50,855 bases of DNA, taken from the NCBI GenBank assembly GCA_026390695.1, contig JAPLFL010000053.1:1-50855 (forward strand), written 5' to 3'. Each line of letters starts with the position of its first letter. The stretch's first letter is position 1. Below the pieces are notes generated by a model. That model was not told the origin of the DNA, searched no databases, and saw only the letters and a program-made list of their open reading frames with translations. Shown here in pieces: positions 18,795 to 50,855 of the stretch. The position numbers and the translations under genes are program-made. Source of the stretch: Candidatus Kapaibacterium sp. (lineage in GTDB: Bacteria > Bacteroidota > Ignavibacteria > Kapaibacteriales > UBA2268).

Positions 18795-18865
18795 TTGAAA
18801 CCCTTTAAAATTAAAAAAATTGTTTATTTTGATTCTTTGAAGAACATTAAAAAGAAGTAAAATGC

Positions 18866-19054
18866 TTTCAAAGATAAATTTCCATCTTACGAAGATAATT
18901 TGAAGTCTTACAAAGATAATTTTCTGTCTTACAAAGATAATTCGTAGCCTTACGAAGATAATTTGAAGCCTTACGAAGATAATTTGAAGCCTTACGAAGA
19001 TAATTTGAAGTCTTACGAAGATAATTCTAAGCATTACAAAGATAAATTTTTCTG
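18866..19054. repeat. 21-bp tandem array 1a (9 units)
   Basis: Nine adjoining units of exactly 21 bp built on TTAC(G/A)AAGATAATTTGAAG, the central ones nearly identical and the outer ones diverged. Because 21 is a multiple of three, several frames stay open through the array and create false ORFs (for instance a repeated IIFVRLQ on the minus strand). There are no unique spacers, so it is not a CRISPR array. Confidence 0.9.
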
Positions 19055-19084: not shown

Positions 19085-19231
19085 TCTTTTCACGAATAAA
19101 AATCTATTTCGTATGAATTTTATTATATTTCGTAATGATTAAAATCTATTTTGTATAAAAATAAATCTATTTCGTGAAGGAAATAATCTATTTTGTATGA
19201 ATTAGAATCTATTTTGTAAGTGTTCGATTAT
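19085..19231. repeat. 21-bp tandem array 1b (7 units)
   Basis: Seven units of exactly 21 bp built on ATTT(C/T)GTATGAATT-GAATCT, more diverged than array 1a. Read on the opposite strand, the units share TACGAA and about two thirds of positions with array 1a, so the two arrays may be ancient inverted relatives. Confidence 0.8.
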
Positions 19232-32848: not shown

Positions 32849-33153
32849 GGAAGTAGTTAGGGAACCTATTGCACTCGTGAGGATAGTCTAAGAAGTAGTA
32901 CGGATAAGTTTTGCAGGAGTACGGATAGTCTTGGAAGTAGTACAGATAAGTTTTTCCGATCGGCAAAGACCACTTGCACGTCGGCAAAACTAACTTGCAC
33001 GTCGGCAAAACTAACTTGCACGTCACTTGCACGTCGGCAAAACTAACTTGCACGTCGGCAAAACTAACTTGCACGTCTGCAAAACTAACTTGCACATCGG
33101 CAAAACTAACTTGCACATCGGCAAAACTAACTTGCACGTCGGCAAAAGGTACT
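32849..33153. repeat. 21-bp tandem array 2 (about 14 units plus an 11-bp partial)
   Basis: Two sequence families share one register. Units at 32849-32953 alternate GAAGTAGTACGGATAAGTTT and GCAGGAGTACGGATAGTCTT types; a hybrid unit follows at 32954-32974. Eight nearly identical units built on TGCACGTCGGCAAAACTAAC then run to 33153, interrupted by a truncated 11-bp unit at 33017-33027. All full units are exactly 21 bp. The array lies upstream of the barrel operon and right at the end of the degenerate receiver gene. No spacers, so not CRISPR; long ORFs through it are artefacts. Confidence 0.92.
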
Positions 33154-38073: not shown

Positions 38074-40845
38074 CTAATAGTCAGTACACAACACAAAAGC
38101 ACCCCAATAATATGGATTCGGATATTTCTCTTTGATTTTCAATTGGGCTTCGCGCAGTGCCTCTATTTTGCTTTTGCCGCCCAAATAACCCTTGTAAAAT
38201 TCAAACATGAGTTCTTGGGTGGTTTGATCATTTACGTTCCATAAACTCATTAAAAGGCTCTTGGCTCCTGAGATATAAAATGCTCTGGTCAATCCATAAA
38301 CACCTTCACCATTTTTGATCTCACCTAAACCTGTTTCACAAGCACTCAGAACTACTAAATCAGTATTGTGAAAATCAGAGTTCATTACTTCATAAGAAGT
38401 CAAAATGCCATTGTTTTCAGAATTATCAATTGATGAATTTGTAATTGCATCCTTTGAACCGGCTAGGAGTAAGCCTGATTTTATCATCGGGTTGGTTTTC
38501 GGTAAATAAATCTGACCACCTTTTCTGCCTGAATTTTCTGCTTTGTTATCACTTAAAAAGAAACCATGTGTTGCGATATGTAATATATTTGCCTTCGATG
38601 TTTTCAATAAATTAGATTTTGTTGCTTCGGCGCCTGTGAAACTGCTGACAATAATTTTATTTTCTGTCATTAATTTTCCAAGATCATCAATTTCTTTCTT
38701 TGCTCCCGGTAAATCTTCAATCTTTAAACTCTTGAGTTCCTTTAATATGCTTGCACTTCCAATATTTCTCTCTTTTGAATTTGTTGATTTTGAACTCGCA
38801 AATGCCGGTGCTCCTAATAAAACAGCAGTCTCAGTTTTTGTTGAACTTTTTTCTTGCCTTTTTAAAATATCAGCAGTGGATAAAACAAGATTAATCTTCT
38901 TAGAATCGAGCAGATATTTCCCGTTCATACTATGAAGGGTATTCATCGAAATTCTATGATATACTCCATCAACAGCAATATAAATCGTTTTTTTGTTGGG
39001 AATTTTCTCTTCAATTTTTGACCAATAATCCAAATATGAACTATTATCATCAACTTTTCTTTTAATTGCGCTTAAATAATTATTTATTGATACCGATTCA
39101 AATTGTTCTGCCGCATCAAGAACTAAAAGGGTAGGAGCATCTTTTGTTTCTTTGGTCAATATCAAAGCAATATAAAAATACTGATCTTTATTGCCCTTTC
39201 TAAATGCTTCAAAACGAATGATTTCAATTGCTACCTCATCTTCAGCTAATTTCCCTTGAATATCCTGCCATTTGGGAGTGGAAAAGAAGTCGCCACTTTC
39301 GCCATTTGTTCCGGATGATAATTTCTTTTCAATTTCCTTAACCGCCTTTTCTAATTCTTCAATATCATTATTCGATGCAGATAATTCCGATTTGGACATC
39401 ATATAAAGTCGGCATAATTGTTGTCTTTTATGCTTCCAATCATCAAAAATAGTTATAAGTTCATTATTATTTGTAGATTCGATTTTTCTTCGGATTTCTG
39501 ATGAGCTATTTAATAATATCGAACGAAACGCTAAAGTAAAATTGTACAAATCACAAGTAATTTTCGGGGATTCTTTTACTCTATCAAGAATATAGGATGC
39601 AAACATTCCGTATCTCAATTTGACCTTATCAATATAATCTTCCTTTTCATCTTCGCTTAAAAATGGAAAAAACTGTTTTACCAATTTCAAATTCAAGTCC
39701 AAAGCTTTGCGGAAGTTATCATCGGCAAGGCGGTAATCTCCGGCATCAGCTTGAATACCTGCAAGATTGAATAAAGCTCCGGAATAATCAGGATTATTCT
39801 CACCAAAAAATATTTCCCGGAGTGCAACTACTTCTGATAAATATTTTTGAGCAATATCATATTTCCCATTAAACCAATTGATTATGCCAAGTGCATTAAG
39901 ACAATATGCATAAAGTGAATTAGTTTTGCCAAGATGTTTTTCAATCAATGGCTTAAGCTTCATAAAACCTGCTAAGGCTTCCTCCATTTTTCCTTGTGTC
40001 CAAAGTAAAACGGCAAAATCATAAAGTGGACTTATGAACTCAGTCCGATTTTCAGGAATCTTATCTTTTATTTTATTAAAGCGATTGATAATATCCTTCA
40101 CCTGATCGGATTGGCTAAGAGCACTATTCACAAGTCCAAGTTTTAGAAGGGCATAGATTGTGCTCGGATGAGTTTCGCCAAGTTTATCTTTAAAAATAAA
40201 ATATGATTCCGATATTAACTTCTCAGCTTCAATGAAATCTGCTAAAGAATAATACAGAGTTCCGAGATTAAATATTGTATTTGCATAAGTAACATTTTTT
40301 TGTTCTTTATTTTTCAAACTTTCTTTGAACATTTTTTCTGATTGCTCAAATTCTCCGAAAGTCTGCAACAATCTTCCAGAATTATTTAAAGCATGAGAAT
40401 ATGTTAAAGAATTAATTCCGGAAATTTTTCGTTTAATTTCAATTGCTTCAGCAATATTCTGACGCGCTTCTTCATAGCGACCAAGATATTGGTTTACTAC
40501 TGATAAATTATTTAAAGTCAAGGCATAAGATGGATGTTCTACTCCAAATGCACTTTTCAGTATATTTTTTCTTGTTATTAAATATTGATATGCCTTGTCA
40601 TAATCTCCCATACTCATACTGATAGACGACATAAGTCCTAATGACACAGCATGTTTTGCAGGACTTTCATGAACTCCGATTTTTAGAGATTCATCAGCGT
40701 AAAAAACTGCCGAATCCAATTTATCAGCTTTTAAAAAGCCTTTGCTCTTAACAAATAAATCTTGCCAAGTATCCGCATTTGCAGCAGTTCTAAAATTTAT
40801 TAATACTATTACAATTAATATAAATCTCAAATATATTTTATTCAT
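38074..40845 (-). CDS. Exported TPR-CHAT protease (caspase/separase-like)
   Basis: 923 residues with a signal peptide (about 1-25, ending ANA). TPR repeats fill about residues 30-390 (HPSYALTLNNLSVVNQYLGR, HALNNSGRLLQTFGEFEQSE, GALFNLAGIQADAGDY), then a helical linker, and a C-terminal CHAT domain. Its catalytic dyad is H760 (HIATHGFF) and C836 (SACETGLG), with YWGAF near the end. CHAT domains are clan CD cysteine peptidases, like caspase and separase. Because of the signal peptide this one should work in the periplasm or at the surface. It lies 39 nt after the OmpA-family gene and is the last gene of the adhesin operon, so it may process the adhesin or cell-envelope partners (inference). Confidence 0.88.
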   Translation of the reverse strand: MNKIYLRFILIVIVLINFRTAANADTWQDLFVKSKGFLKADKLDSAVFYADESLKIGVHESPAKHAVSLGLMSSISMSMGDYDKAYQYLITRKNILKSAFGVEHPSYALTLNNLSVVNQYLGRYEEARQNIAEAIEIKRKISGINSLTYSHALNNSGRLLQTFGEFEQSEKMFKESLKNKEQKNVTYANTIFNLGTLYYSLADFIEAEKLISESYFIFKDKLGETHPSTIYALLKLGLVNSALSQSDQVKDIINRFNKIKDKIPENRTEFISPLYDFAVLLWTQGKMEEALAGFMKLKPLIEKHLGKTNSLYAYCLNALGIINWFNGKYDIAQKYLSEVVALREIFFGENNPDYSGALFNLAGIQADAGDYRLADDNFRKALDLNLKLVKQFFPFLSEDEKEDYIDKVKLRYGMFASYILDRVKESPKITCDLYNFTLAFRSILLNSSSEIRRKIESTNNNELITIFDDWKHKRQQLCRLYMMSKSELSASNNDIEELEKAVKEIEKKLSSGTNGESGDFFSTPKWQDIQGKLAEDEVAIEIIRFEAFRKGNKDQYFYIALILTKETKDAPTLLVLDAAEQFESVSINNYLSAIKRKVDDNSSYLDYWSKIEEKIPNKKTIYIAVDGVYHRISMNTLHSMNGKYLLDSKKINLVLSTADILKRQEKSSTKTETAVLLGAPAFASSKSTNSKERNIGSASILKELKSLKIEDLPGAKKEIDDLGKLMTENKIIVSSFTGAEATKSNLLKTSKANILHIATHGFFLSDNKAENSGRKGGQIYLPKTNPMIKSGLLLAGSKDAITNSSIDNSENNGILTSYEVMNSDFHNTDLVVLSACETGLGEIKNGEGVYGLTRAFYISGAKSLLMSLWNVNDQTTQELMFEFYKGYLGGKSKIEALREAQLKIKEKYPNPYYWGAFVLCTDY

Positions 40846-40883: not shown

Positions 40884-43127
40884 TTACCACTTAATCGGTG
40901 TTTCAACTTCCACTTCTACAGTTCGGCAATAAAAACGTCCTTCAGGTAAATCATTATCGTATAATAAATCAGAACCGCCAAGATAATTAATATATACGTT
41001 TTTGCTATTCATAAGATTTTTGACTGCTTTAGCACGATCTTCAGATAGTTGCAAATTCTTCTGTTGGTCACCTACTCTATCGGTATAACCGGTTACATTA
41101 AATTTCGAGCTTGCCTGAGATTTGCTTTTAATAAAATCACAAATTTTTTGGTTTGCAGATGAAAGCTCAGATGAATTAAACTGGAATAATATTAGGCTGT
41201 ATTTATCAACAATTTTATCACCTTGGCGATTAGCCTTCTTCTTGCGTATAGTAACTTGCTCGGTCGGCAATGCTTTATCGCCAGAGCTAATAAGTTTTCC
41301 GTAGGAGTCCCAAAATTCAAGTTTATATTTAATATCAGATTCAAAGCGAGGCATTTTATCTTTATTTCTATCAATTTTCCAATCAACTATGCGTGGAAGT
41401 GTATCTTCTTTTTCAAATACTTCAAGTATTTTGCCGCCTTGCTCTGCTGTAATACGCCATTTCTTAATTGCAGATTCAGTTTTTGCTGCATTGTAAAAGC
41501 GTATTATAGGAGGTGATGCTTTTAATAGAGTATCTTTTGTATAAACCGGTTCAAGAATTTCGTAAGTATCCGATGAAATTTCTACTCTGCGGTTTTCTTC
41601 AACTCCATCTGGAACTTTTATGTTTGATGGCGTTTCTGGTAAATTTCTTGTCTGAATATTAATTCTGCTCTTTTCTATATTCCAAACAGATGTAAGATAA
41701 TCAAAAATAATCTCTGCTCGCTTTTTTGATAATTCTTTATTTCCCTTTTCTTTATCGTTATCAGAATTACATCCGGTAACTGTGATTTTGGAATTTGGAA
41801 AATCTTTCATTCTTTTTGCGACAATGTTCAGTACATTATAATATGTCGCTAATGTACCGGATTTACTTAATTTATCAACAGAAAAACCATTTGTTTCATC
41901 ATTATTAAGTTTGATATATTTACTTTGAAGTTCAGATGAATTTTTCTCGAAGAAGACATAATTTAGTAATGGACGAAGGTTATTTGATAAAAATTCTTCA
42001 ACTCTCAAAGTTGCTTTGTTATCTTCGATATTGTCATCAACTCCCACTGCACGAATATAGGCTTGTGATGCTGCTTCAATAGTATTATCGATAAATTCAT
42101 TATCTTTGCGGTTGTATGTTCCATAAATAATATTATCGGAATTGCCAATAATTTCATATTCTTCATCAAAAGCAAAAATTTTATCATTTTCATCTTCTTT
42201 TTGTGGAATAATCTGCTTAATCTCTGTATATTTTGAAGTTGAGTACATTAAACATAGTCCAAATTTCAAGGAATTAGCTTTCCATGACAAATTATTTACG
42301 ATATTTGTAAGTGAATAGTAATAATTTATTTCTGGGTAAAGGAGCATTGATTTTGAAGCGTTTAGAGGCAATTCATAGCTTAAGCCGCCTTCTACTCCTA
42401 AAATCAGTGGGTTTACTTCTGGTATGGTTCCAGTTGATTGATGCTGTACACGTAATTTCGTATCTTTGCCGTTTGAATCAATAAAGGTTCCCGAATTAAT
42501 TGGCTGAGTTATCTTTTCTTCTTGTGTGTAATTTTTAGTTAAAAGATAGCCAATATTTATGGCAGCGTTTATATGCAATTTATCAAAAATATTGAATGAT
42601 ATTCCCGGTTTAATTGAAATCAATGCCAGTTTCGCATCCATTGTATGTGAAAATTCACCATCGACTGCCATTGAATCAATCGCAACTTTTGTTGGCTCAA
42701 TTGCTGAAAGTAGTCCATTTAATCCGCTATATTCTAACTTAGCATTTACCGAGAAATTTGTGAATATTGGATAATCAAAGACAAATCCGAAAGTTAGTCC
42801 AGTTCCATCTCCGGTTTTAAAATCGGGACAGCAGTTTGGTATTCCGGGCAGTCTTTGGAAATTTGCAATATGTGAATTTAGATTATAATTTACATATCCG
42901 CCATATCCAGTACCAAGAATAACTTTCTCGAAAGAATCGGCTGAATAAGAATTTATTGGAAAAAGAGCACATGTTAAAATGAATATTATCACTTTATAAT
43001 CAAAGAACCTCACCCCGACCCTCTCCAAAGGAGAGGGAGTAAAGACGTTCTTATTCCCTCTCCTTTGGAGAGGGTTAGGGTGAGGTTCCAAAGTATTTTG
43101 CAGTTTGTTATAATTTTTCTTCCTCAC
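40884..43127 (-). CDS. OmpA-family outer-membrane protein with two OmpA-like domains
   Basis: Up to 747 residues. The signal peptide is VIIFILTCALFPINSYSA, preceded in frame by about 45 residues encoded mostly by a palindromic repeat (43005-43088). The annotated start is a GTG overlapping the upstream stop; GTG codons just after the repeat are at least as likely, with GGAG of the repeat serving as ribosome binding site. An N-terminal beta-barrel region (TGYGGYVNYNLNSHIANFQR, GLTFGFVFDYPIF) is followed by an OmpA-like domain (KITVTGCNSDNDKEKGNKEL, EENRRVEIS) and a second, C-terminal one (NVTGYTDRVGDQQKNLQLSE, YCRTVEVEVE). OmpA domains bind peptidoglycan. It sits between the giant adhesin and the CHAT protease genes. 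Confidence 0.85.
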   Translation of the reverse strand: MRKKNYNKLQNTLEPHPNPLQRRGNKNVFTPSPLERVGVRFFDYKVIIFILTCALFPINSYSADSFEKVILGTGYGGYVNYNLNSHIANFQRLPGIPNCCPDFKTGDGTGLTFGFVFDYPIFTNFSVNAKLEYSGLNGLLSAIEPTKVAIDSMAVDGEFSHTMDAKLALISIKPGISFNIFDKLHINAAINIGYLLTKNYTQEEKITQPINSGTFIDSNGKDTKLRVQHQSTGTIPEVNPLILGVEGGLSYELPLNASKSMLLYPEINYYYSLTNIVNNLSWKANSLKFGLCLMYSTSKYTEIKQIIPQKEDENDKIFAFDEEYEIIGNSDNIIYGTYNRKDNEFIDNTIEAASQAYIRAVGVDDNIEDNKATLRVEEFLSNNLRPLLNYVFFEKNSSELQSKYIKLNNDETNGFSVDKLSKSGTLATYYNVLNIVAKRMKDFPNSKITVTGCNSDNDKEKGNKELSKKRAEIIFDYLTSVWNIEKSRINIQTRNLPETPSNIKVPDGVEENRRVEISSDTYEILEPVYTKDTLLKASPPIIRFYNAAKTESAIKKWRITAEQGGKILEVFEKEDTLPRIVDWKIDRNKDKMPRFESDIKYKLEFWDSYGKLISSGDKALPTEQVTIRKKKANRQGDKIVDKYSLILFQFNSSELSSANQKICDFIKSKSQASSKFNVTGYTDRVGDQQKNLQLSEDRAKAVKNLMNSKNVYINYLGGSDLLYDNDLPEGRFYCRTVEVEVETPIKW
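43005..43088. repeat. 84-bp palindromic element lying over the start of the OmpA-family gene
   Basis: GAACCTCAC at the left and GTGAGGTTC at the right are inverted, and inside them CCCTCTCCAAAGGAGAGGG and CCCTCTCCTTTGGAGAGGG each form hairpins. In the gene's frame it reads as PHPNPLQRRGN and SPLERVGVRF, strings I recognise as translations of this widespread repeat and not as part of a signal peptide. It therefore inserted at the head of the gene. Confidence 0.8.
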
Positions 43128-46100
43128 TTCACCACCTCAATCTTCTTAGTTAAAATCATAGTTTCTGTTTTCAGAACAAGGAAGTATGTTCCACTATGTA
43201 AATCACTTATATTGATTTGCTCACTTCCCGTTCCAGCTTTTTTAGCTTGATTGAAAACTACTTTTACTTCCTGTCCTGCATTATCAACAAGTGCCATTTT
43301 AGTCATTCCATCTTCAATCAACTCATAATCAATCTCAATTTTATCATTTCCTGGATTTGGTTTTCCGATCATCAATTTTGCTGTGGTTCCTGCACTTAAT
43401 AAACGCGGATGCCCACCCTCGCGGCAGAGACCGGTTAGAGTAAACAGACCATTCTTTACAGTTACTTTTACGTTTGTATCGCCGATGGCGGTAGGATTTG
43501 TTGCTTTTAATTCAGATAAAGTATCATTTCCTAAGGTAGCAATAAAATCAAAGGCTTTGAAATAATTGGCATTTTCAGCTAATGCAGGAAGTGCCAACGT
43601 AACTGTATTAATTGAGTCACTTAGCTTGCCATTCGGTGTTTTATCAAAAGGTACAAGCAGTGTTTTATTAAATGATAAATCAAATTTATAACCTTTAACA
43701 TTATCAATATTATGGGCAGTATCCAAATAAATCTTCAATAGCACTCCTCCACCCGGATCGGACTCCGTACTATCTACATGAAATATTGCAAATCCTTTAA
43801 TTGCGGGAGTTCCAACATTTGCAAAAAGCGAGATTTGCGTGCCATTGCCGCAATTAGGTTCGGTGAATTTATATTTTGCAGAGTCAATTGTACCATTTTT
43901 AGCTCCAGCATAACGGAAAGTTAGAATACCTGATGAATTCGGTGGTATAGGATTCGGGTCAATGCTTAATATCTTGAATTTAATATCAATTGTAATAGGA
44001 AATGCAAAAAATATAGGAATTGAACCGGTATTTGTAATCCCTAAATCTTGAGTACTTGATAAATTCTCAGGCAAATTTCTGTAATATACTTTACTTGAAT
44101 CCAGCACAAAACCACTGCTATCTTTACTGCCGGTTAAAGTTACATTAAATTTTGCATTATTGCTTGCATTGCTGTTTATAGTCAAATTGGCTGTTTTTTG
44201 GCCTGTTGTTTTTGGAACAAAATTGATTAATAATTGCACTTTTCCCATAGAATCAATTTTTGTGTTGGAATAATCCTTCACAGCAGCAAATTCATCTTTG
44301 TTCGTTCCACCAAAATCTATGGAACTGATCATTAATGGCGCAACTCCATAATTCTGGACAAGTAAAGTGTCTGTAGAAATTGAAGTGCAGATAATATTAT
44401 TATATTTAATTGACGTATTTGCAACTATTGCAGGATTTTTGCCTCCGCTGGGATAATAATGTCCCGCTGCTGCACGCGCTTTGCATCCATTGGCATCGGT
44501 AACTTCACAGTCGTAAATGCCTTCCTTCGTTGGCTTGTAGCTCGCGGCGGTCGCTCCGGGGATGAGTGTGTCCTGATAAAACCATTGATTTCCACTTGGC
44601 GCATCGCTGTAAAGTGTTGAATCTTTTTCGCTTATATTTGGTTTTGCCGGCAATGGATGTACTGTAAATGATTTCCATACAGAATCTGAACAGCCTTCAG
44701 GAGTGGTGTAGCTATAAGTGATAGTATGCGAACCTGCTCCGGCTGAGAGAGGATCGAATTTCGTTCCGTTTATCCCTTTAGCTCCGCTGTAATTGCCTCC
44801 GACGGGGAAACCGCTTGTCAGGTCGAACGCTCCGGCATCCATGCAAATATCGAGGAATCCGCCAATACTCACTTTTGGCATTGGATTGACCGTTACGGTA
44901 AGTTCGGTGGAATCAAGAAATCCCTTCGATTTATCTTCTTGAATTAGCTTGACTTTGCCCGCACCCTTGCTTGTCCAGTTGACCGTAATTTGGTCGCCTG
45001 TATTTTGCCCGATTATTTGGCCAAAGGAATTTACCGACCATTTGCTCGTTGCACCGTTTGGCGTAGTGGTTTTGTAATCAGCTGATCGTCCTTCGCAAAG
45101 GCTTTGTGTGCCAGTAATACTGAGTCCGGGTTTGTTGCTGAGTGTTACAGAAAGTGAATCTTGACTTGAGCAGTCAAATTCATTGGTTTGAGTTAGAATA
45201 ACTTTGCCGCTTGTGCCCGCTCCCCAGAGAACATCAACTGAGCTTGAATTATCTTTGCCTTGGACTGCTCCGCCCGATGCAGTCCATTTGTATGTGTTAT
45301 TTGTGGCTAAGGCAGCAGTATATGTTTGTAGAGCTTGATTCAGCGCTGTAATTGGCCCGCTGATTTTTGGTTTTGGCAACTGGTGAATAGTCACGCTAAT
45401 TGATGCCGTATCTTTCAGATTGCCGCTTATAGTTTGGATTAATGTTACAGAACCCTGACCTGCTGCGCCCCATTTAACATTGAATAATGTATCTGTGGTT
45501 GAACCTATCGGATTGCCGCCCTGCGCGCTCCATTCATTTGTTCGATTGGCAGCAGGAGCGACGGAAAACTTCGACGAAGAAAATTCGCAAATATTTGCTG
45601 AGTAATTATTTATAACGATATTAGAATTATTTATTGTAATATCAAGAGTTATTGAATCTCTGCAACCCGCTGCATTTGTTACATATAGAGTTATCTTTTC
45701 AGTTCCGGCAGCGCCCCACTGGATATTTACAATCTGTGCACTTGACGAACCCATTATCGTTCCACCGCTGCTAACTATCCACTGCCATGTCGTTGCGTCA
45801 GTTGGGCCGCTGTAACTCTGCGTTGAGCCTTTCGGAACGGACGATAATCCTGAAATTGATTTATTTGGTAATGCACTTACAGCAACAGATAAGCTGCTTG
45901 AATCAGAGCAATTTGTACTTACATTTGTCCTTTTCGCTTTAACGCTGCCAGTGCCAACACTTGCCCACTTCACTTTCACCGACGGGCCTGAGCTCGGGCT
46001 GACTGTTCCGCCAACTGCAGACCATGAAAGTGTAGTTCCTACAATATCAGTAGCGGTATATGTATATTCATTAGCAACGCAGGCTGGATTGGGGCCGGCA

Positions 46101-48535
46101 ATATCGGGTTTAACGGGAAGTGGATTGATTGTAATTAATTTATAATCGGAATTGACGCAGCCGGTGTTTTGATTCGTTACAGTGCATTGGATTGTCGCAC
46201 TGCTGGTGTTTACCCAATTTACATTAACTGAATTTACGTTTGATGGGCTGCTGAATGTGCCACTTGTCGGAGGAATTATTGTCCATTGATAAGTATGATT
46301 TGCGACAGAGCCTACGGAATAAGCTGAAATATTATTCGGGCAAACTGTTAGCGTCCCTGTGATTGATGGCGCGGGAAGAGGATTCACCGTAATTACGACA
46401 AACGTTGTGCTCTCGCAGCCGGTAATGGAATTGTCTTGTTTTAATGTCAGAGTTGCCGAGCCGGCCGTGGGCCATGTTATGTTCACAGTTTGATTTGTAT
46501 TAGAGCCTTGAATCGTGCCATTAGTCGCAGTCCAAATATCTTCCACCGGACTTGCTGAATTTGAGGAATATGAATAAGTATTTGTTGCGCAAACGGAATT
46601 CGGGCCACTTAAGGCAGGATGCGGGACAGGATTGAGCGTAATCACCTGAAAAGTAGAATCTTTGCAGCCTGTCGCGGTTATTGTTTCAACAACTTTTATT
46701 GTAGCACTCGGTGCGCTTCCCCAAAGAACATCGACATTATTATTGGTCGAGCTGCCCTGAATTGTGCTATTAGTAGCATACCATTTGTATGTGTGGCCAC
46801 TGATGTTCGGGGTGGAATAATCATCCTGAACTTTTTCGCAAAGAGTGAATGTTCCGCTAATTGCGGGAGTGGGGAGTGGGTTTATCGTAACTGCTTGAAA
46901 AACAGTATCGGTGCAGCCGGTGGCATTAATGGTTTCGATTAGCGAAACAGTTCCGCTCGATTGGCTTCCCCAAACAATTCCGACGTTTGTTGTATTATCA
47001 ACGCCTTGGATAGTGCCATTGAAAGCTAACCATTTATAGGTTCTGCCGGCAATGGATGTACCGCTAAATGTTTGATAAGCATTTGCACATACGCTGCTTG
47101 GTCCGGTAATTGAGAAAGTCGGCAGTGCATTTATGGTGATATTTGCGCCATTGTCTGAACCTGTAACTGCTGGGTCGGACGAAACAACGCGAACTCTATA
47201 TGCTGTGCCTGCGGGTGTATTTCTTGGGATAGTTCCGCTTATAGTTCCTGCACTTGTGCCAACTAATGTGCCAACAGCAGTAGGAGAAGAGAAATTGCCG
47301 CTTGCATCCGAAAGCTGGGCAGTAAATGTATAGCTGGAGTTGAAAGTGCCCGTGATTGTGAAGGGGATGGAGATGGAGGAGCCAGAACAGTAAGTTGTTG
47401 GAGTGATGGAGGAAGTTGTTATAGAAGTTAAATTAAATTTAAAGATAAGTCCAAGATTATTTGCACCTGCTCGTTGAGTCATTCCATATAAAACATTATT
47501 TATAGAAAGTAAAGTACCTAATGGAATATGACCATCGGGAAAACGATAAAGGTAAGAAAAACCTGATCCATCAAGGTTCATTTTAAAGAGATCAGAATTT
47601 GAATAAGTCAAACCATATAAAGTTGTATCCACTTTTATTAATCCGTTATAAGCTCTAAAAAGTGGATAATCATGTAACACAGTATAATTCGATCCATCTT
47701 TATTTATTCTAAAAATTACTCCAAGATTTGTTGTGCCATAATCAGTCATCCCATACAGTATATTTCCATCATTTAGCAATCTACAATAAGGCCATTCTCC
47801 TTGAGGAGCATTAAAATCATATATTTTTGTATAACCAGTACCATCAGTGCTTATTTTAAATATAGTACCGACTCCATTAGAACCACCTTCCGAAGTCGTA
47901 CCAAACAATGAATTTCCATCATAAATTAAGTCTGAATAAGGGTGCGCTCCGTCTGGATTAGATGTAAATTCATGAAGTTTTGTAAAACCAGAACCATCTG
48001 TGTTTATTTTAAATATGGTTCCCCATGTCCCGGTTCCACCATCATAAGCTAAACCATAAAGAACATTATTAATCAGAATTACATTTCCATGAGGATGTCT
48101 TCCGGAATTTGTATATTCAAAATCAAGAATTTTAGAATATCCAGACCCATCATTATTTATTTTAAAAATTACTCCACAATTATTTATCCCACCTTGCTCA
48201 GTCATTCCATATAATAATGAGCCGCTTATAACAATATTATTACCACTTGGATTTGCACCATTTGAACTACTAAAATCAAAAAGTTTTGTAAAACCAGATC
48301 CATCAGGATGAATTTTAAAAAGCGTACCGACTCCATTTGCACCACCATTATAGCAATCTCCATAAAGATAGGTTCCATCATATACCAATCCTCCAAAATC
48401 AGGATAATATCCGCTTGAATTTGAAAAATTATAAAGTACTGAATATTGTTGAGCATTAGCAGTGATAGCCAAACCTGCGAGATAGCAAAGTAAAAAGATT
48501 ATTTTCATCATAATTATATCGGCATTTTTATTCAT
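43124..48535 (-). CDS. Giant T9SS adhesin: GloVer repeats, PKD-like domains, choice-of-anchor D and sorting domain
   Basis: 1803 residues. Signal peptide MKIIFLLCYLAGLAITANA (the in-frame ATGs 24-27 nt after the first ATG may be the true start). Residues about 25-370 are seven or eight repeats of the GloVer type (TIGR03803): GANGVGTLFKIHPDGSGFTK and variants with YDGTYLYG. About ten PKD/Ig-like domains follow (SGTFTLCEKVQDD ... GHTYKWYATNSTIQG). Then come a choice-of-anchor D domain (PLMISSIDFGGTNKDEF), a cohesin-like domain (GFAIFHVDSTESDPGGG) and a type A T9SS sorting domain (GKPNPGNDKIEIDYELIEDG, SGTYFLVLKTE, ending KKIEVVK). It should be displayed on the cell surface. First gene of the operon with OmpA-family and CHAT genes. 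Confidence 0.9.
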   Translation of the reverse strand: MNKNADIIMMKIIFLLCYLAGLAITANAQQYSVLYNFSNSSGYYPDFGGLVYDGTYLYGDCYNGGANGVGTLFKIHPDGSGFTKLFDFSSSNGANPSGNNIVISGSLLYGMTEQGGINNCGVIFKINNDGSGYSKILDFEYTNSGRHPHGNVILINNVLYGLAYDGGTGTWGTIFKINTDGSGFTKLHEFTSNPDGAHPYSDLIYDGNSLFGTTSEGGSNGVGTIFKISTDGTGYTKIYDFNAPQGEWPYCRLLNDGNILYGMTDYGTTNLGVIFRINKDGSNYTVLHDYPLFRAYNGLIKVDTTLYGLTYSNSDLFKMNLDGSGFSYLYRFPDGHIPLGTLLSINNVLYGMTQRAGANNLGLIFKFNLTSITTSSITPTTYCSGSSISIPFTITGTFNSSYTFTAQLSDASGNFSSPTAVGTLVGTSAGTISGTIPRNTPAGTAYRVRVVSSDPAVTGSDNGANITINALPTFSITGPSSVCANAYQTFSGTSIAGRTYKWLAFNGTIQGVDNTTNVGIVWGSQSSGTVSLIETINATGCTDTVFQAVTINPLPTPAISGTFTLCEKVQDDYSTPNISGHTYKWYATNSTIQGSSTNNNVDVLWGSAPSATIKVVETITATGCKDSTFQVITLNPVPHPALSGPNSVCATNTYSYSSNSASPVEDIWTATNGTIQGSNTNQTVNITWPTAGSATLTLKQDNSITGCESTTFVVITVNPLPAPSITGTLTVCPNNISAYSVGSVANHTYQWTIIPPTSGTFSSPSNVNSVNVNWVNTSSATIQCTVTNQNTGCVNSDYKLITINPLPVKPDIAGPNPACVANEYTYTATDIVGTTLSWSAVGGTVSPSSGPSVKVKWASVGTGSVKAKRTNVSTNCSDSSSLSVAVSALPNKSISGLSSVPKGSTQSYSGPTDATTWQWIVSSGGTIMGSSSAQIVNIQWGAAGTEKITLYVTNAAGCRDSITLDITINNSNIVINNYSANICEFSSSKFSVAPAANRTNEWSAQGGNPIGSTTDTLFNVKWGAAGQGSVTLIQTISGNLKDTASISVTIHQLPKPKISGPITALNQALQTYTAALATNNTYKWTASGGAVQGKDNSSSVDVLWGAGTSGKVILTQTNEFDCSSQDSLSVTLSNKPGLSITGTQSLCEGRSADYKTTTPNGATSKWSVNSFGQIIGQNTGDQITVNWTSKGAGKVKLIQEDKSKGFLDSTELTVTVNPMPKVSIGGFLDICMDAGAFDLTSGFPVGGNYSGAKGINGTKFDPLSAGAGSHTITYSYTTPEGCSDSVWKSFTVHPLPAKPNISEKDSTLYSDAPSGNQWFYQDTLIPGATAASYKPTKEGIYDCEVTDANGCKARAAAGHYYPSGGKNPAIVANTSIKYNNIICTSISTDTLLVQNYGVAPLMISSIDFGGTNKDEFAAVKDYSNTKIDSMGKVQLLINFVPKTTGQKTANLTINSNASNNAKFNVTLTGSKDSSGFVLDSSKVYYRNLPENLSSTQDLGITNTGSIPIFFAFPITIDIKFKILSIDPNPIPPNSSGILTFRYAGAKNGTIDSAKYKFTEPNCGNGTQISLFANVGTPAIKGFAIFHVDSTESDPGGGVLLKIYLDTAHNIDNVKGYKFDLSFNKTLLVPFDKTPNGKLSDSINTVTLALPALAENANYFKAFDFIATLGNDTLSELKATNPTAIGDTNVKVTVKNGLFTLTGLCREGGHPRLLSAGTTAKLMIGKPNPGNDKIEIDYELIEDGMTKMALVDNAGQEVKVVFNQAKKAGTGSEQINISDLHSGTYFLVLKTETMILTKKIEVVK

Positions 48536-48774: not shown

Positions 48775-49161
48775 TTATGGTTTCCTATATGGAATTAAAA
48801 TATTATCAAACATTTGAAAATGCTTATGGTTTAAGCTAACAATCTTACTCTTTGTAATAATTGACGTTGCGGCAATCAAAGAATCAGCCAAACCAATTCC
48901 GAAACTCTTCCCGAATTCTTTACGAATCAAGCCACCTTTTTCAGCAATTTCACTATTTATCGGAATAAAATCAAATGCCTTAATAAACTCACCAATGCTC
49001 ACTTTTTCTTTTTGATTACGAATTCCGGAATATAACTCAGCAACAGTAATTGCCGAAATCAACATTTCATTATTGCTTGATTCCAAAAATTCAACAGCAT
49101 GCGGCTCCGTGCGAAGATAGTCGATAATAACATCGGTATCAATCAAATATCTTTCAGCCAT
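48775..49161 (-). CDS. PIN-domain toxin, VapC type
   Basis: 128 residues from the preferred ATG at 49161 (MAERYLIDTDVIIDYL); a longer frame starting 51 nt upstream lies inside the antitoxin gene. The acidic residues of PIN ribonucleases are all present: D8 (LIDTD), E42 (VAELYSG), D93 (GLADSLIAA), with VSLNHKHF near the end. VapC toxins cut tRNA or rRNA when the antitoxin is lost. The start overlaps the antitoxin stop by 8 nt, the normal antitoxin-first order. Unlike the PIN gene at 9265 it is intact. Confidence 0.9.
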   Translation of the reverse strand: MAERYLIDTDVIIDYLRTEPHAVEFLESSNNEMLISAITVAELYSGIRNQKEKVSIGEFIKAFDFIPINSEIAEKGGLIRKEFGKSFGIGLADSLIAATSIITKSKIVSLNHKHFQMFDNILIPYRKP

Positions 49162-49393
49162 TGAATTCTCTTTCCCAAGAATTTCTAAGCTCATTTGAAT
49201 CAGGAATATCAACTCTATCAGCCCAAATTCCTTTACCTTTTTTCAAAAACTCCTTTTTGTTGATTACTTTGTCAAACTGATAATTAAGAATAGCCAAGTT
49301 AGCAACTTCATTTTCTTTTTTTCCAAGTTTGGCAGATAATAAAGCCAGCTTTTTGTATGCTGTTTTTGATATTGATATTTGAGTTTGCAACAT
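49154..49393 (-). CDS. VapB-like antitoxin
   Basis: 79 residues. The N-terminus (MLQTQISISKTAYKKLALLS) fits a small ribbon- or helix-type DNA-binding and dimer domain; the acidic/aromatic C-terminus (GIWADRVDIPDSNELRNSWE) would bind and block the PIN toxin. It starts behind a strong ribosome binding site (GGAGG, 49397-49401 on the minus strand) and overlaps the toxin gene by 8 nt. Exact antitoxin fold not determined. Confidence 0.75.
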   Translation of the reverse strand: MLQTQISISKTAYKKLALLSAKLGKKENEVANLAILNYQFDKVINKKEFLKKGKGIWADRVDIPDSNELRNSWEREFNG

Positions 49394-49489: not shown

Positions 49490-49659
49490 AACATCGCCGA
49501 AAATTATTTAATAGTCAAGTCGCGCGTCATAGTAATGCACAGATTTGACGTAAACATGCAAAGTTCTGCATAAGTAAAGTTATAATTTCTTTGATAATTT
49601 GAAGTAATCATGTAAACACCTATAATTTATAAGACATAAAACAATTATTTTATATAATC

Positions 49660-49848
49660 AAATCCGCCTCTTATTGAGACAAATCCGATGTTTAAAGAAG
49701 TAAATCCGATTCTTATTGAGACAAATCCGCTCTTTAAAGCAGTAAATCCGCCTCTTATTGAGACAAATCCGATGTTTAAAGCAGTAAATCCGCTCTTTAA
49801 AGCAGTAAATCCGCCTCTTATTGAAGTACATCCGGTCTTTATTGAATA
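49660..49848. repeat. 21-bp tandem array 3 (9 units, two alternating types)
   Basis: Nine adjoining units of exactly 21 bp. All but the last begin AAATCCG, and they then fall into a CCTCTTATTGAGAC type and an (A/C)T(G/C)TTTAAAG(C/A)AGT type that mostly alternate. No sequence relation to arrays 1 and 2 is evident, only the same period. Frames through it stay open and give false ORFs with repeated SIRGGFTALKS-like strings. Confidence 0.92.
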
Positions 49849-49883
49849 TAAATTTTGTTTCAAAGAACGGGTTTTGGTTTCAA

Positions 49884-50638
49884 AACTCCGAAGGAGTTGT
49901 ATATTAATAACTCTGCAATCCCTTAATGACCCAAAGCTACGTAGTAGCGACATCTTTCCAAGGTAGGAAGCAAAGAAATATATCACTCCTTCGGAGTTAT
50001 TTTCGTTAAATGGATTCCGTGGTTATTAAGATTTCGCTACTTCGTTGCTGAAGAATCCATCATATTCAATTCCTTATCGCGGAGCGATTACATAATGGTA
50101 GAAACCGATTCCCCCCCGACACGTTTTTATCTCGTAGAGATTATATATTTCTTATGGTTGACGAAATATTTAATTCCTACGGAATAAGAAGGGCGTGGGA
50201 AGGGTCTCCATTGCTACCAATATTTATTCACTACGTGAAATTTGGAAGAAGATTTGTTTTCAAAGAACGGTTTTTAATGTAAAATGCAGAATTAAGAATG
50301 CAAAATTAAAGAAAAAATCATATTAATCAAAATCATTTTTGGTTTAAATATCACGGTGTGATTAAATATTGGTAGAAAATTCGTCCCGCCGCTGTCTTTT
50401 TATCTCGTAGAGATTATATATTTGTTCCAGAACCACGTAGTGGTGAAATATTTATAGAACAATATTTCCCAGATATGCTTCAACTCCGTAGGAGTGACAT
50501 ATTTCCAAAGATTGCTGCGATAATATATGTCACCACTACGTGGTTTTGGTGGTCAGACCTGTTCCGTTTCTATAAATATTTCACCTCTACGAGGTTGAAG
50601 AAATATCCATTTCTACCAATATTCATTCACTACGTGAA
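49884..50638. repeat. Cluster of about 15 hairpins with covarying arms
   Basis: Each is a 13-bp unit of 5-bp arm, 3-nt centre and 5-bp arm. Examples: ACTCC-GTA-GGAGT (50483), ACCAC-GTA-GTGGT (50432), ATCTC-GTA-GAGAT (50129, 50402), GCTAC-GTA-GTAGC (49936), ATTCC-TAC-GGAAT (50173), TTCAC-TAC-GTGAA (50227, 50626), ACCAC-TAC-GTGGT (50532), ACCTC-TAC-GAGGT (50583), ACTCC-TTC-GGAGT (49985), ATCAC-GGT-GTGAT (50350). Arms differ but stay complementary. Flanks are AT-rich (ATATATTT-like). No gene is credible in this stretch. Confidence 0.85.
50214..50269 (+). repeat. 56-bp direct repeat, copy 1 (contains one hairpin)
   Basis: Begins CTACCAATATTTATTCACTA and ends TTTGTTTTCAAAGAACG. It differs from the copy at 50613 at one position. 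Confidence 0.9.
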
Positions 50639-50668: not shown

Positions 50669-50855
50669 TGAGTTTTATGTTAAAGAAGATTAATTTAACA
50701 TAAAACTCATCTATAAATACAAAATTAATAATTTATTATCACTACTGTCCGGTAAACCAAAAAAGAGAGAAAAATCAATTGATAAATGATTGAAAAATAT
50801 AAATTCAATTTTGAAATTCAAAAAGTACCCCCCTCTGTTTTTTAGGAATAGTCGA
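50669..50855. other. AT-rich window end, no gene seen
   Basis: No convincing frame. ACTGTCCGGTAAACC at about 50743 resembles ends of some insertion sequences, but nothing else supports one within the window. Confidence 0.3.

Follow-up and report, generated by a model that had tools for sequence, protein, structure and literature searches.

The closest described counterparts of the hairpins reported here belong to two groups of mobile sequences with Y1/HUH transposases. In REP/REPIN systems the gene for the transposase, called RAYT or TnpA_REP, is flanked by inverted short palindromes with short loops, and many gene-less copies are dispersed elsewhere. In the IS200/IS605 family (IS608, ISDra2; TnpA subclass 1.1) the hairpins are subterminal, and in IS608 both end hairpins have the same strand orientation. 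REP stems carry GT[AG]G at the foot and show complementary changes among members, which have been represented with IUPAC codes (PMC3733652), and RAYT enzymes have motifs of the Y..NP type (PMC6006769). Another group of enzymes, TnpA_Y1 subclass 1.2, is characterized by the signature Y---Q--HH, a low copy number, and occurrence in Bacteroidetes; no REP-type sequence is given for this subclass in its description, according to which typical IS200 ends are generally missing (PMC6006769). Finally, CGTC-tagged REPs, which include TGTC variants with short tails, are also reported in Bacteroidetes and Chlorobi, and no dedicated transposase was known for them (PMC3733652).

Here we describe a cluster of hairpins within the window, that is, the whole stretch of 50,855 nucleotides of Candidatus Kapaibacterium sp. 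DNA (contig JAPLFL010000053.1) that was analysed. This cluster probably consists of the ends of a transposase module that have been copied without the gene (REPIN/MITE-like), in the manner of REP/RAYT systems. As in those systems, a Y1/HUH gene is flanked by inverted short palindromes with short loops, gene-less copies lie elsewhere, and the stems show complementary changes. In contrast to REPs, however, GT[AG]G is not present at the 5' foot (among 268 non-redundant units, positions -4 to -2 are nearly uninformative and -1 is mostly A), and there is instead a one-sided tail of 13-15 nt; the units commonly recur about every 50 nt; and whereas REPs have many dispersed copies, no full unit with tail was found in a 400-kb sample of each of three genomes, unlike the chosen cluster loci. 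The enzyme has Y---Q--HH rather than Y..NP. It shares its fold and its best solved relatives by sequence with the IS200/IS605 family, as well as the subterminal hairpins, but here most hairpins stand in inverted orientation about the gene, frequently several on each side, and the tyrosine motif differs. The tail begins with GACA, the complement of the TGTC of the CGTC-tagged REPs when these are compared by description, but the stems of those REPs measure 8-9 bp and their loops 4-5 nt (PMC3733652), compared with 5 bp and 3-4 nt here. In signature, low copy number, and presence in Bacteroidetes the enzyme agrees with subclass 1.2. We read the lack of terminal structures reported for that subclass as a gap of the earlier automatic search, not as excluding these enzymes from it, because that search sought GT[AG]G (PMC6006769). 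In the literature, searched largely outside subscription journals, no report was found of hairpins with the Y---Q--HH enzyme class or of the tail motif. The best reading is a REP/RAYT-like system in a transposase subclass for which we found no earlier report of linked hairpins. In this reading the arms stay paired because it is the folded stem that the enzyme recognises.

The initial annotation of this DNA noted at least a dozen 13-bp units of a 5-3-5 plan, and a palindrome scan agrees with it. Fifteen perfect palindromes with 5-bp arms and a 3-nt loop begin within 49884-50638; 14 of these are members of the family, which together with a fifteenth hairpin having one mismatch spans 49885-50638. 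(The remaining palindrome, TTTTAATGTAAAA at 50272, is a perfect 5-3-5 yet falls outside the family.) When the 14 perfect hairpins are oriented by their tails, the loops are GTA in 10, GAA in 2, GGA in 1, and GGT in 1, and the core C-GNA-G is present in 13. The arms do vary from copy to copy, as had been claimed, and nine different ones occur, but most are held to the pattern R-Y-Y-N-C (12/14; the exception, TTCAC, is seen twice). Two further features had not been noted: a one-sided tail common to the units, approximately KAMATATTTrTAGmAA in the Kapaibacterium genome, and ordered composites of the form X+Y+X'-Y'- and P+Q+R-S-. Pure chance is ruled out as the origin of the cluster, since about 0.02 C-GNA-G hairpins are expected per 755 bp, judging from a 400-kb sample of the same genome, versus the 13 observed.

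The first composite, X+Y+X'-Y'- (49875..50060, plus strand), is gene-less and REPIN-like and has been aligned with nine other copies. Both the palindrome scan and the composite alignment place in it hairpin X (ACTCC-GAA-GGAGT, 49885..49897, plus), hairpin Y (GCTAC-GTA-GTAGC, 49936..49948, plus), and hairpin X' (ACTCC-GAA-GGAGT, 49985..49997, minus), and the alignment adds Y' (50036..50048, minus), which is the unit with one mismatch. It is followed by four hairpins found by the palindrome scan: P (ATCGC-GGA-GCGAT, 50076..50088, plus), Q (ATCTC-GTA-GAGAT, 50129..50141, plus), R (ATTCC-GTA-GGAAT, 50173..50185, minus), and S (TTCAC-GTA-GTGAA, 50227..50239, minus). Inside a composite the units start 44-54 nt apart, with successive spacings of 51/49/51 for X+Y+X'-Y'- and 53/44/54 for P+Q+R-S-. 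In a second array the scan finds another P (ATCAC-GGT-GTGAT, 50350..50362, plus), which has the sole non-GNA loop, and another Q (ATCTC-GTA-GAGAT, 50402..50414, plus). There follows a second X+Y+X'-Y'- composite (50422..50607, plus), likewise aligned with other copies, whose hairpins X (ACCAC-GTA-GTGGT, 50432..50444, plus), Y (ACTCC-GTA-GGAGT, 50483..50495, plus), X' (ACCAC-GTA-GTGGT, 50532..50544, minus), and Y' (ACCTC-GTA-GAGGT, 50583..50595, minus) are supported by both scan and alignment. The array ends with a second S (TTCAC-GTA-GTGAA, 50626..50638, minus; palindrome scan). The sequence TTTCAAAGAACG is present three times in the window, at intervals of 399-400 bp. In a closely similar array on contig C123, a 151-bp segment carrying P, Q, and R (50056..50206, to which no strand is assigned) is missing between Y' and S; TCCAT borders this segment at 50056-50060 and 50207-50211, and a single TCCAT is found in C123. 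This suggests either a mobile unit of three hairpins or a deletion between short repeats.

Directly past the cluster, at 50669-50709, lies an inverted repeat of 16 bp that is perfect and encloses a loop of 9 nt (TGAGTTTTATGTTAAA). The cluster is adjoined at 49649-49841 by tandem repeats of 21/42 bp (AAATCCG...), through which a minus-strand frame encoding seven-residue repeats remains open. These repeats are duplicated along with the hairpin cluster on contig C123 (L009 5546-5742). Other arrays with a 21/42-bp period and unrelated units are located at 18865-19050, 19094-19220, and 32869-33147; a period of 21 is recurrent on this contig. The window also contains genes for a CHAT-TPR protein (38074-40845), for a protein of 1803 amino acids with a type IX secretion sorting domain (43124-48535), and for a PIN-domain (VapC-like) protein (48775-49212).

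That pairing is kept while the arms change, as the initial annotation held, was confirmed with ten X-Y-X'-Y' copies aligned through their spacers, all from the Kapaibacterium genome: the two of the window and eight from other contigs. Of 200 cells, 98.0% are paired, versus 83.6% after shuffling, and none of 500 shuffles is as high. Changes on both sides occur at 11 of the 20 pairs (shuffled mean 6.5; 1/500 reaches 11), while controls in which the partner was slid give 0-1. Several arm changes are block swaps of a hairpin together with the neighbouring spacer, as between copies C92a and C92b, and the cell counts therefore overstate the number of independent events. Modules are exchanged between copies, in addition to compensated changes.

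The family is clustered and of low copy number, consistent with its weak excess over shuffled sequence. A genome-wide excess had been proposed as a check, and there is hardly any: 400 kb of large contigs of the Kapaibacterium genome contain 11 C-GNA-G hairpins, and ten shuffles contain 6-10 (mean 7.8). (It should be noted that this sample consists of large contigs, and the clusters are often at contig ends.) The 400-kb samples of two relatives have 6 (shuffles 4-10) and 16 (shuffles 7-16). A dispersed genome-wide repeat is thus not supported, there being a trace of excess at most and no full unit in 400 kb. At least two units are present on each of 12 contigs of the Kapaibacterium genome, the window counted, and clusters are located at or near the ends of contigs C16, C19, C34, C92, C94, C97, and C123. 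The assembly therefore probably breaks at these places, and intact copies may be missing from it. Since an identical pair of units is found at the ends of C16, C19, and C97, some of the clusters may be one repeat seen repeatedly.

The Pfam model Y1_Tnp detects four genes in the Kapaibacterium genome. One of these, located on contig C19, is flanked by hairpins on either side, but this copy is broken: its HUH is replaced by EYFY, and the stretch around a conserved W is lost. The copy on contig C52 contains stop codons, and because both copies are broken, present activity in this genome is doubtful. (Past the broken C52 transposase, on the other strand, lies an open frame of seven-residue repeats, LNYLSDS, at L028 2031-2327.) No Y1 gene was found beside clusters other than those of C19 and C52, and the remaining two Y1 loci of the genome have no such hairpin. 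Among the matches listed at E 1e-5, the C19 gene has homologues in 21 of 54 family genomes, the Kapaibacterium genome included. At all 19 loci with a best segment of at least 42% identity (L033-L046, L053-L057), one or more perfect C-GNN-G hairpins lie in the flanking sequence analysed, which extends up to 1.5 kb, compared with 1 of 7 weaker homologues (27-36% identity).

A survey of named genomes gave at least 573 homologous stretches, and the best 80 loci were analysed; here, as in the family, phylum, and held-out searches (up to 30 matches each), the loci are the best-scoring matches and are biased to close relatives of the query. The best 80 of at least 573 range from Flavobacterium and Chryseobacterium to records labelled Ignavibacteria, Verrucomicrobia, Poribacteria, Planctomycetota, and Desulfonema magnum, and the last four labels extend beyond what is described for subclass 1.2. 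Among these 80 loci there are 5.6 5-3-5 palindromes per kb within 500 nt of the gene, versus 1.7 per kb beyond 1.5 kb, and 188 of the 432 near palindromes have GTA or TAC loops. The tail points towards the gene in 161 of the 214 C-GNA-G hairpins within 500 nt and in the opposite direction in 53; the hairpins of these best 80 are thus mostly inverted around the gene, unlike the single orientation of the IS608 type. At 23 of the 80 there is no C-GNA-G hairpin within 500 nt, and 22 of these 23 have R-Y-Y-N-C stems with other loops (ATA, AGC, AGA, GTTA, and GTCA, among others). When loops of 3-4 nt are considered together, R-Y-Y-N-C stems are found within 250 nt of the gene at 78 of the best 80 of at least 573 loci. 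The family is thus linked to an encoded protein, as the initial annotation had advised looking for, namely a Y1/HUH transposase, and nearly all close members of subclass 1.2 sampled here carry hairpins, unlike the published description.

In these same 80 loci, R-Y-Y-N-C stems number 295 in 39.2 kb near the genes (7.5 per kb) versus 4 in 33.5 kb at a distance of 3 kb (0.12 per kb), and the class accounts for 282 of the 381 stems of five bp close to the genes versus 4 of 82 far away. Fifteen different R-Y-Y-N-C arms occur around the 80 genes. Freely varying arms are rejected, given that the arms near the transposase genes are mostly R-Y-Y-N-C. Because this stem class was chosen on the first loci, it was re-tested on held-out loci: hairpins are present at 29 of 30 loci in one set (28 of 29 without one duplicate; 6.4 vs 0.14 per kb) and at 21 of 21 in another (80 in 10.3 kb near the gene vs 0 in 9.5 kb), in each case among the matches listed. 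Overall, the near-gene density of 6-8 per kb stands against a background of 0-0.14 per kb measured 1-3 kb away. At the 75 of the best 80 loci used for tests of both sides (those with short flanks were left out), R-Y-Y-N-C hairpins lie on both sides of the gene in 52, with at least two per side in 28. An identical inverted hairpin is present on both sides in 28 of the 75, compared with a mean of 4.2 and a maximum of 12 in 500 sets of mis-paired flanks. Of 147 same-loop spacings in the best 80 of at least 573, 91 are 47-57 nt.

Among Y1 genes drawn mostly by the Pfam model, hairpins are seen at 13 of 23 with Y---Q--HH versus 0 of 9 without the motif. (Of these nine, L028, L237, and L257 are related to the clade but broken or divergent, and six are clearly different Y1 genes with no hairpins.) As hairpins are absent at 10 of the 23, the trait marks only part of the subclass. 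Presence and absence were compared at one orthologous intergenic site in one genus, for which 61 genomes were searched and 17 stretches compared. Where the gene is present, in 7 stretches, the left flank is always followed by 3-8 R-Y-Y-N-C hairpins, while none of the 10 without the gene has hairpins in the gap between the flanks; a single R-Y-Y-N-C match lies 226 nt past the left flank in one gene-less stretch. In 5 of the 10 gene-less stretches 0-30 nt separate the placed flanks, and for several of the 17 the placement of the right flank is unreliable. At this site, hairpins and gene are therefore gained or lost jointly, as a block.

A profile of the unit was obtained from 531 units reduced to 268 that are non-redundant. 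The tail, G-A-M-M-Y-R-T-T-W-R-T-A-R, is broadly common to the GNA, GNNA, and ANN loop classes, the foot on the opposite strand is the complement of G-A-M-M, and flanking positions outside the tail are mostly near-unconserved. In a coupling analysis of 181 units, the strongest coupling is between the two foot bases (A with G, or A-T/T-A), and no clear guide for guide-cleavage pairing was seen within the tail. DNA folding energies do not distinguish the loops. C-GNA-G triloops form unusually stable minihairpins in DNA (Yoshizawa 1997, as cited in PMC6479982), and this favours the GNA strand as the strand that would fold. Together with the linkage to a transposase of the IS200/IS605 type, these triloops make DNA, rather than RNA, the favoured acting form. 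At one locus, L302, the tail is tandemly repeated upstream of the transposase, where ATATTTATAG-like copies follow a single hairpin at intervals of about 12-14 nt, as if copying of the tail were possible without the hairpin.

In the enzyme, Y115, Q119, H122, and H123 (Y---Q--HH) are invariant in 21 aligned homologues chosen from the family search, and H55, H57, and Y115 are invariant in an alignment of 16 rows, corresponding to HUH and one tyrosine. A model of a homologue (pLDDT 85) matches IS608 TnpA (2a6m) with a Z of 12.4 and the RAYT-REP complex (4er8) with a Z of 10.3, and the fold search found nothing closer than IS200/IS605 and RAYT. A quick tree was made from 124 of 127 proteins (length >120), of which 120 and 107 entered the counts of changes. 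This tree requires 55 changes of arm type, compared with a mean of 80.3 and a minimum of 71 in 1000 shuffles, and 28 changes of loop class (shuffled 38.2; minimum 31). Among the protein columns, residue 77 shares the most mutual information with arm base 1 (0.58; median 0.07), followed by residues 81, 66, 78, and 74. Residues 77, 81, 78, and 74 are contained within helix 68-85, which follows the HUH, and 66 is outside it.

These data led to a simple rule, in which A, S, G, T, or Q at residue 77 corresponds to G at arm base 1 and any other residue to A. The rule is right at 103 of 120 training loci and at 20 of 20 held-out loci, where the arm of the nearest relative and a constant guess of G are each right at 16 of 20. 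(Of 21 held-out loci, one whose nearest 150 nt contain no hairpin was left out; the protein of L269 also occurs in the training set, and without this locus the rule gives 19/19.) The enzyme of contig C19, with R77, has A-type hairpins, as the rule predicts. The four A-type held-out loci may be one lineage, and the association between arm and enzyme could partly reflect shared descent. Among 52 disjoint close pairs, column 77 ranks fourth of 156, with 4 pairs concordant, 0 discordant, and 11 uninformative; supported independent pairs on the tree are too few for a phylogeny-controlled test. It is a tentative proposal that a small or polar residue at 77 goes with G at arm base 1 and N, R, or K with A. 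It is likewise conceivable, though rather doubtful, that the helix after HUH reads the base pairs at the hairpin foot, so that each enzyme would have its own arm sequence and could switch targets through a few residues. In the TnpAREP of E. coli, the bulge of the REP is contacted by K82, a residue of the DNA-binding helix (PMC8266576). A similar code relating residue 73 to arm base 2 is not claimed: the two are strongly correlated in mutual information, but the held-out result of 17/20 equals that of the nearest neighbour (17/20), and close pairs give no support.

How such a system might work can be pictured as follows. The autonomous form, found in other genomes, comprises a 150-residue Y1/HUH TnpA (Y---Q--HH, subclass 1.2) with hairpins on both sides, commonly about 50 nt apart and with tails mostly facing the gene. 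When DNA becomes single-stranded, for example as the lagging-strand template, each unit would fold into a 5-bp hairpin with a C-GNA-G (or GNNA or ANN) loop. The cognate TnpA would bind the hairpin and its one-sided tail, in the manner of IS200/IS605 and RAYT enzymes with their own substrates, and by nicking and joining could spread or maintain the units. If the enzyme requires a paired stem with particular foot bases, possibly read by a residue of the helix after HUH, then arms would change in compensated fashion and along with the enzyme. Action on single-stranded DNA is inferred, and so are binding, cleavage, and mobility. That the folded form is what is recognised is suggested only indirectly, by relatives of the linked enzyme that act on folded single-stranded DNA.

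Kept pairing can also arise in other ways. Covariation would be expected as well of a structured RNA, in which case the hairpins would be transcribed as terminators, stabilisers, or regulatory motifs and would lie around transposase genes by chance, and REPs elsewhere are plausibly transcribed (PMC3733652). This is quite unlikely here: an Rfam search of the window gave no RNA family at gathering score, most loops obey the C-GNA-G rule of very stable DNA minihairpins (PMC6479982), the tail mostly points at the transposase from both sides, and among the sampled Y1 genes only the Y---Q--HH class carries such hairpins. Ordinary descent with module shuffling, whereby palindromes are duplicated or exchanged as blocks and the fold is not recognised, would account for the arm changes that come with their neighbouring spacers, and the arm type does track the enzyme tree like any linked sequence. 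We nevertheless consider it unlikely, given the 15 different R-Y-Y-N-C arms around the best 80 of at least 573 genes and the enrichment of that class near them, the mostly near-unconserved positions outside the tail, and the held-out success of residue 77 compared with the nearest relative or a constant G.

A last alternative, proposed in the initial annotation, is that one arm is rewritten from the other by quasi-palindrome strand switching, independently of a transposase. Compensated arms would be expected from this process too. Such rewriting is not needed, however, because 4 of the 200 cells in the ten-copy alignment lack pairing and the larger changes resemble an exchange of entire modules. 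As unpaired changes persist, and as linkage to one enzyme class, the tail, and the correlation with a protein residue would be left unexplained, it is very improbable. The earlier interpretation is thus supported in part: the kept pairing and a linked protein are borne out, a genome-wide excess is hardly seen, and templated rewriting is not needed.

If the REP/RAYT-like reading is correct, a REP-like class of repeats with a different recognition signature is added to those described, and a widespread, uncharacterised Y1 subclass gains a likely DNA partner. The natural series of matched hairpins and enzymes would also allow a direct test of how TnpA-type enzymes choose single-stranded substrates. 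If the proposed code also holds, each arm varies in step with its partner arm and with the enzyme, and the result is many enzyme-hairpin pairs that are insulated from one another. The clade profile matches 90 of 198 genomes of the phylum sample at E 1e-25. In a phage collection 7 records match, all with less than 60% identity, and among plasmids there are 48 records, the best of which is a Bernardetia plasmid at 53.9%.
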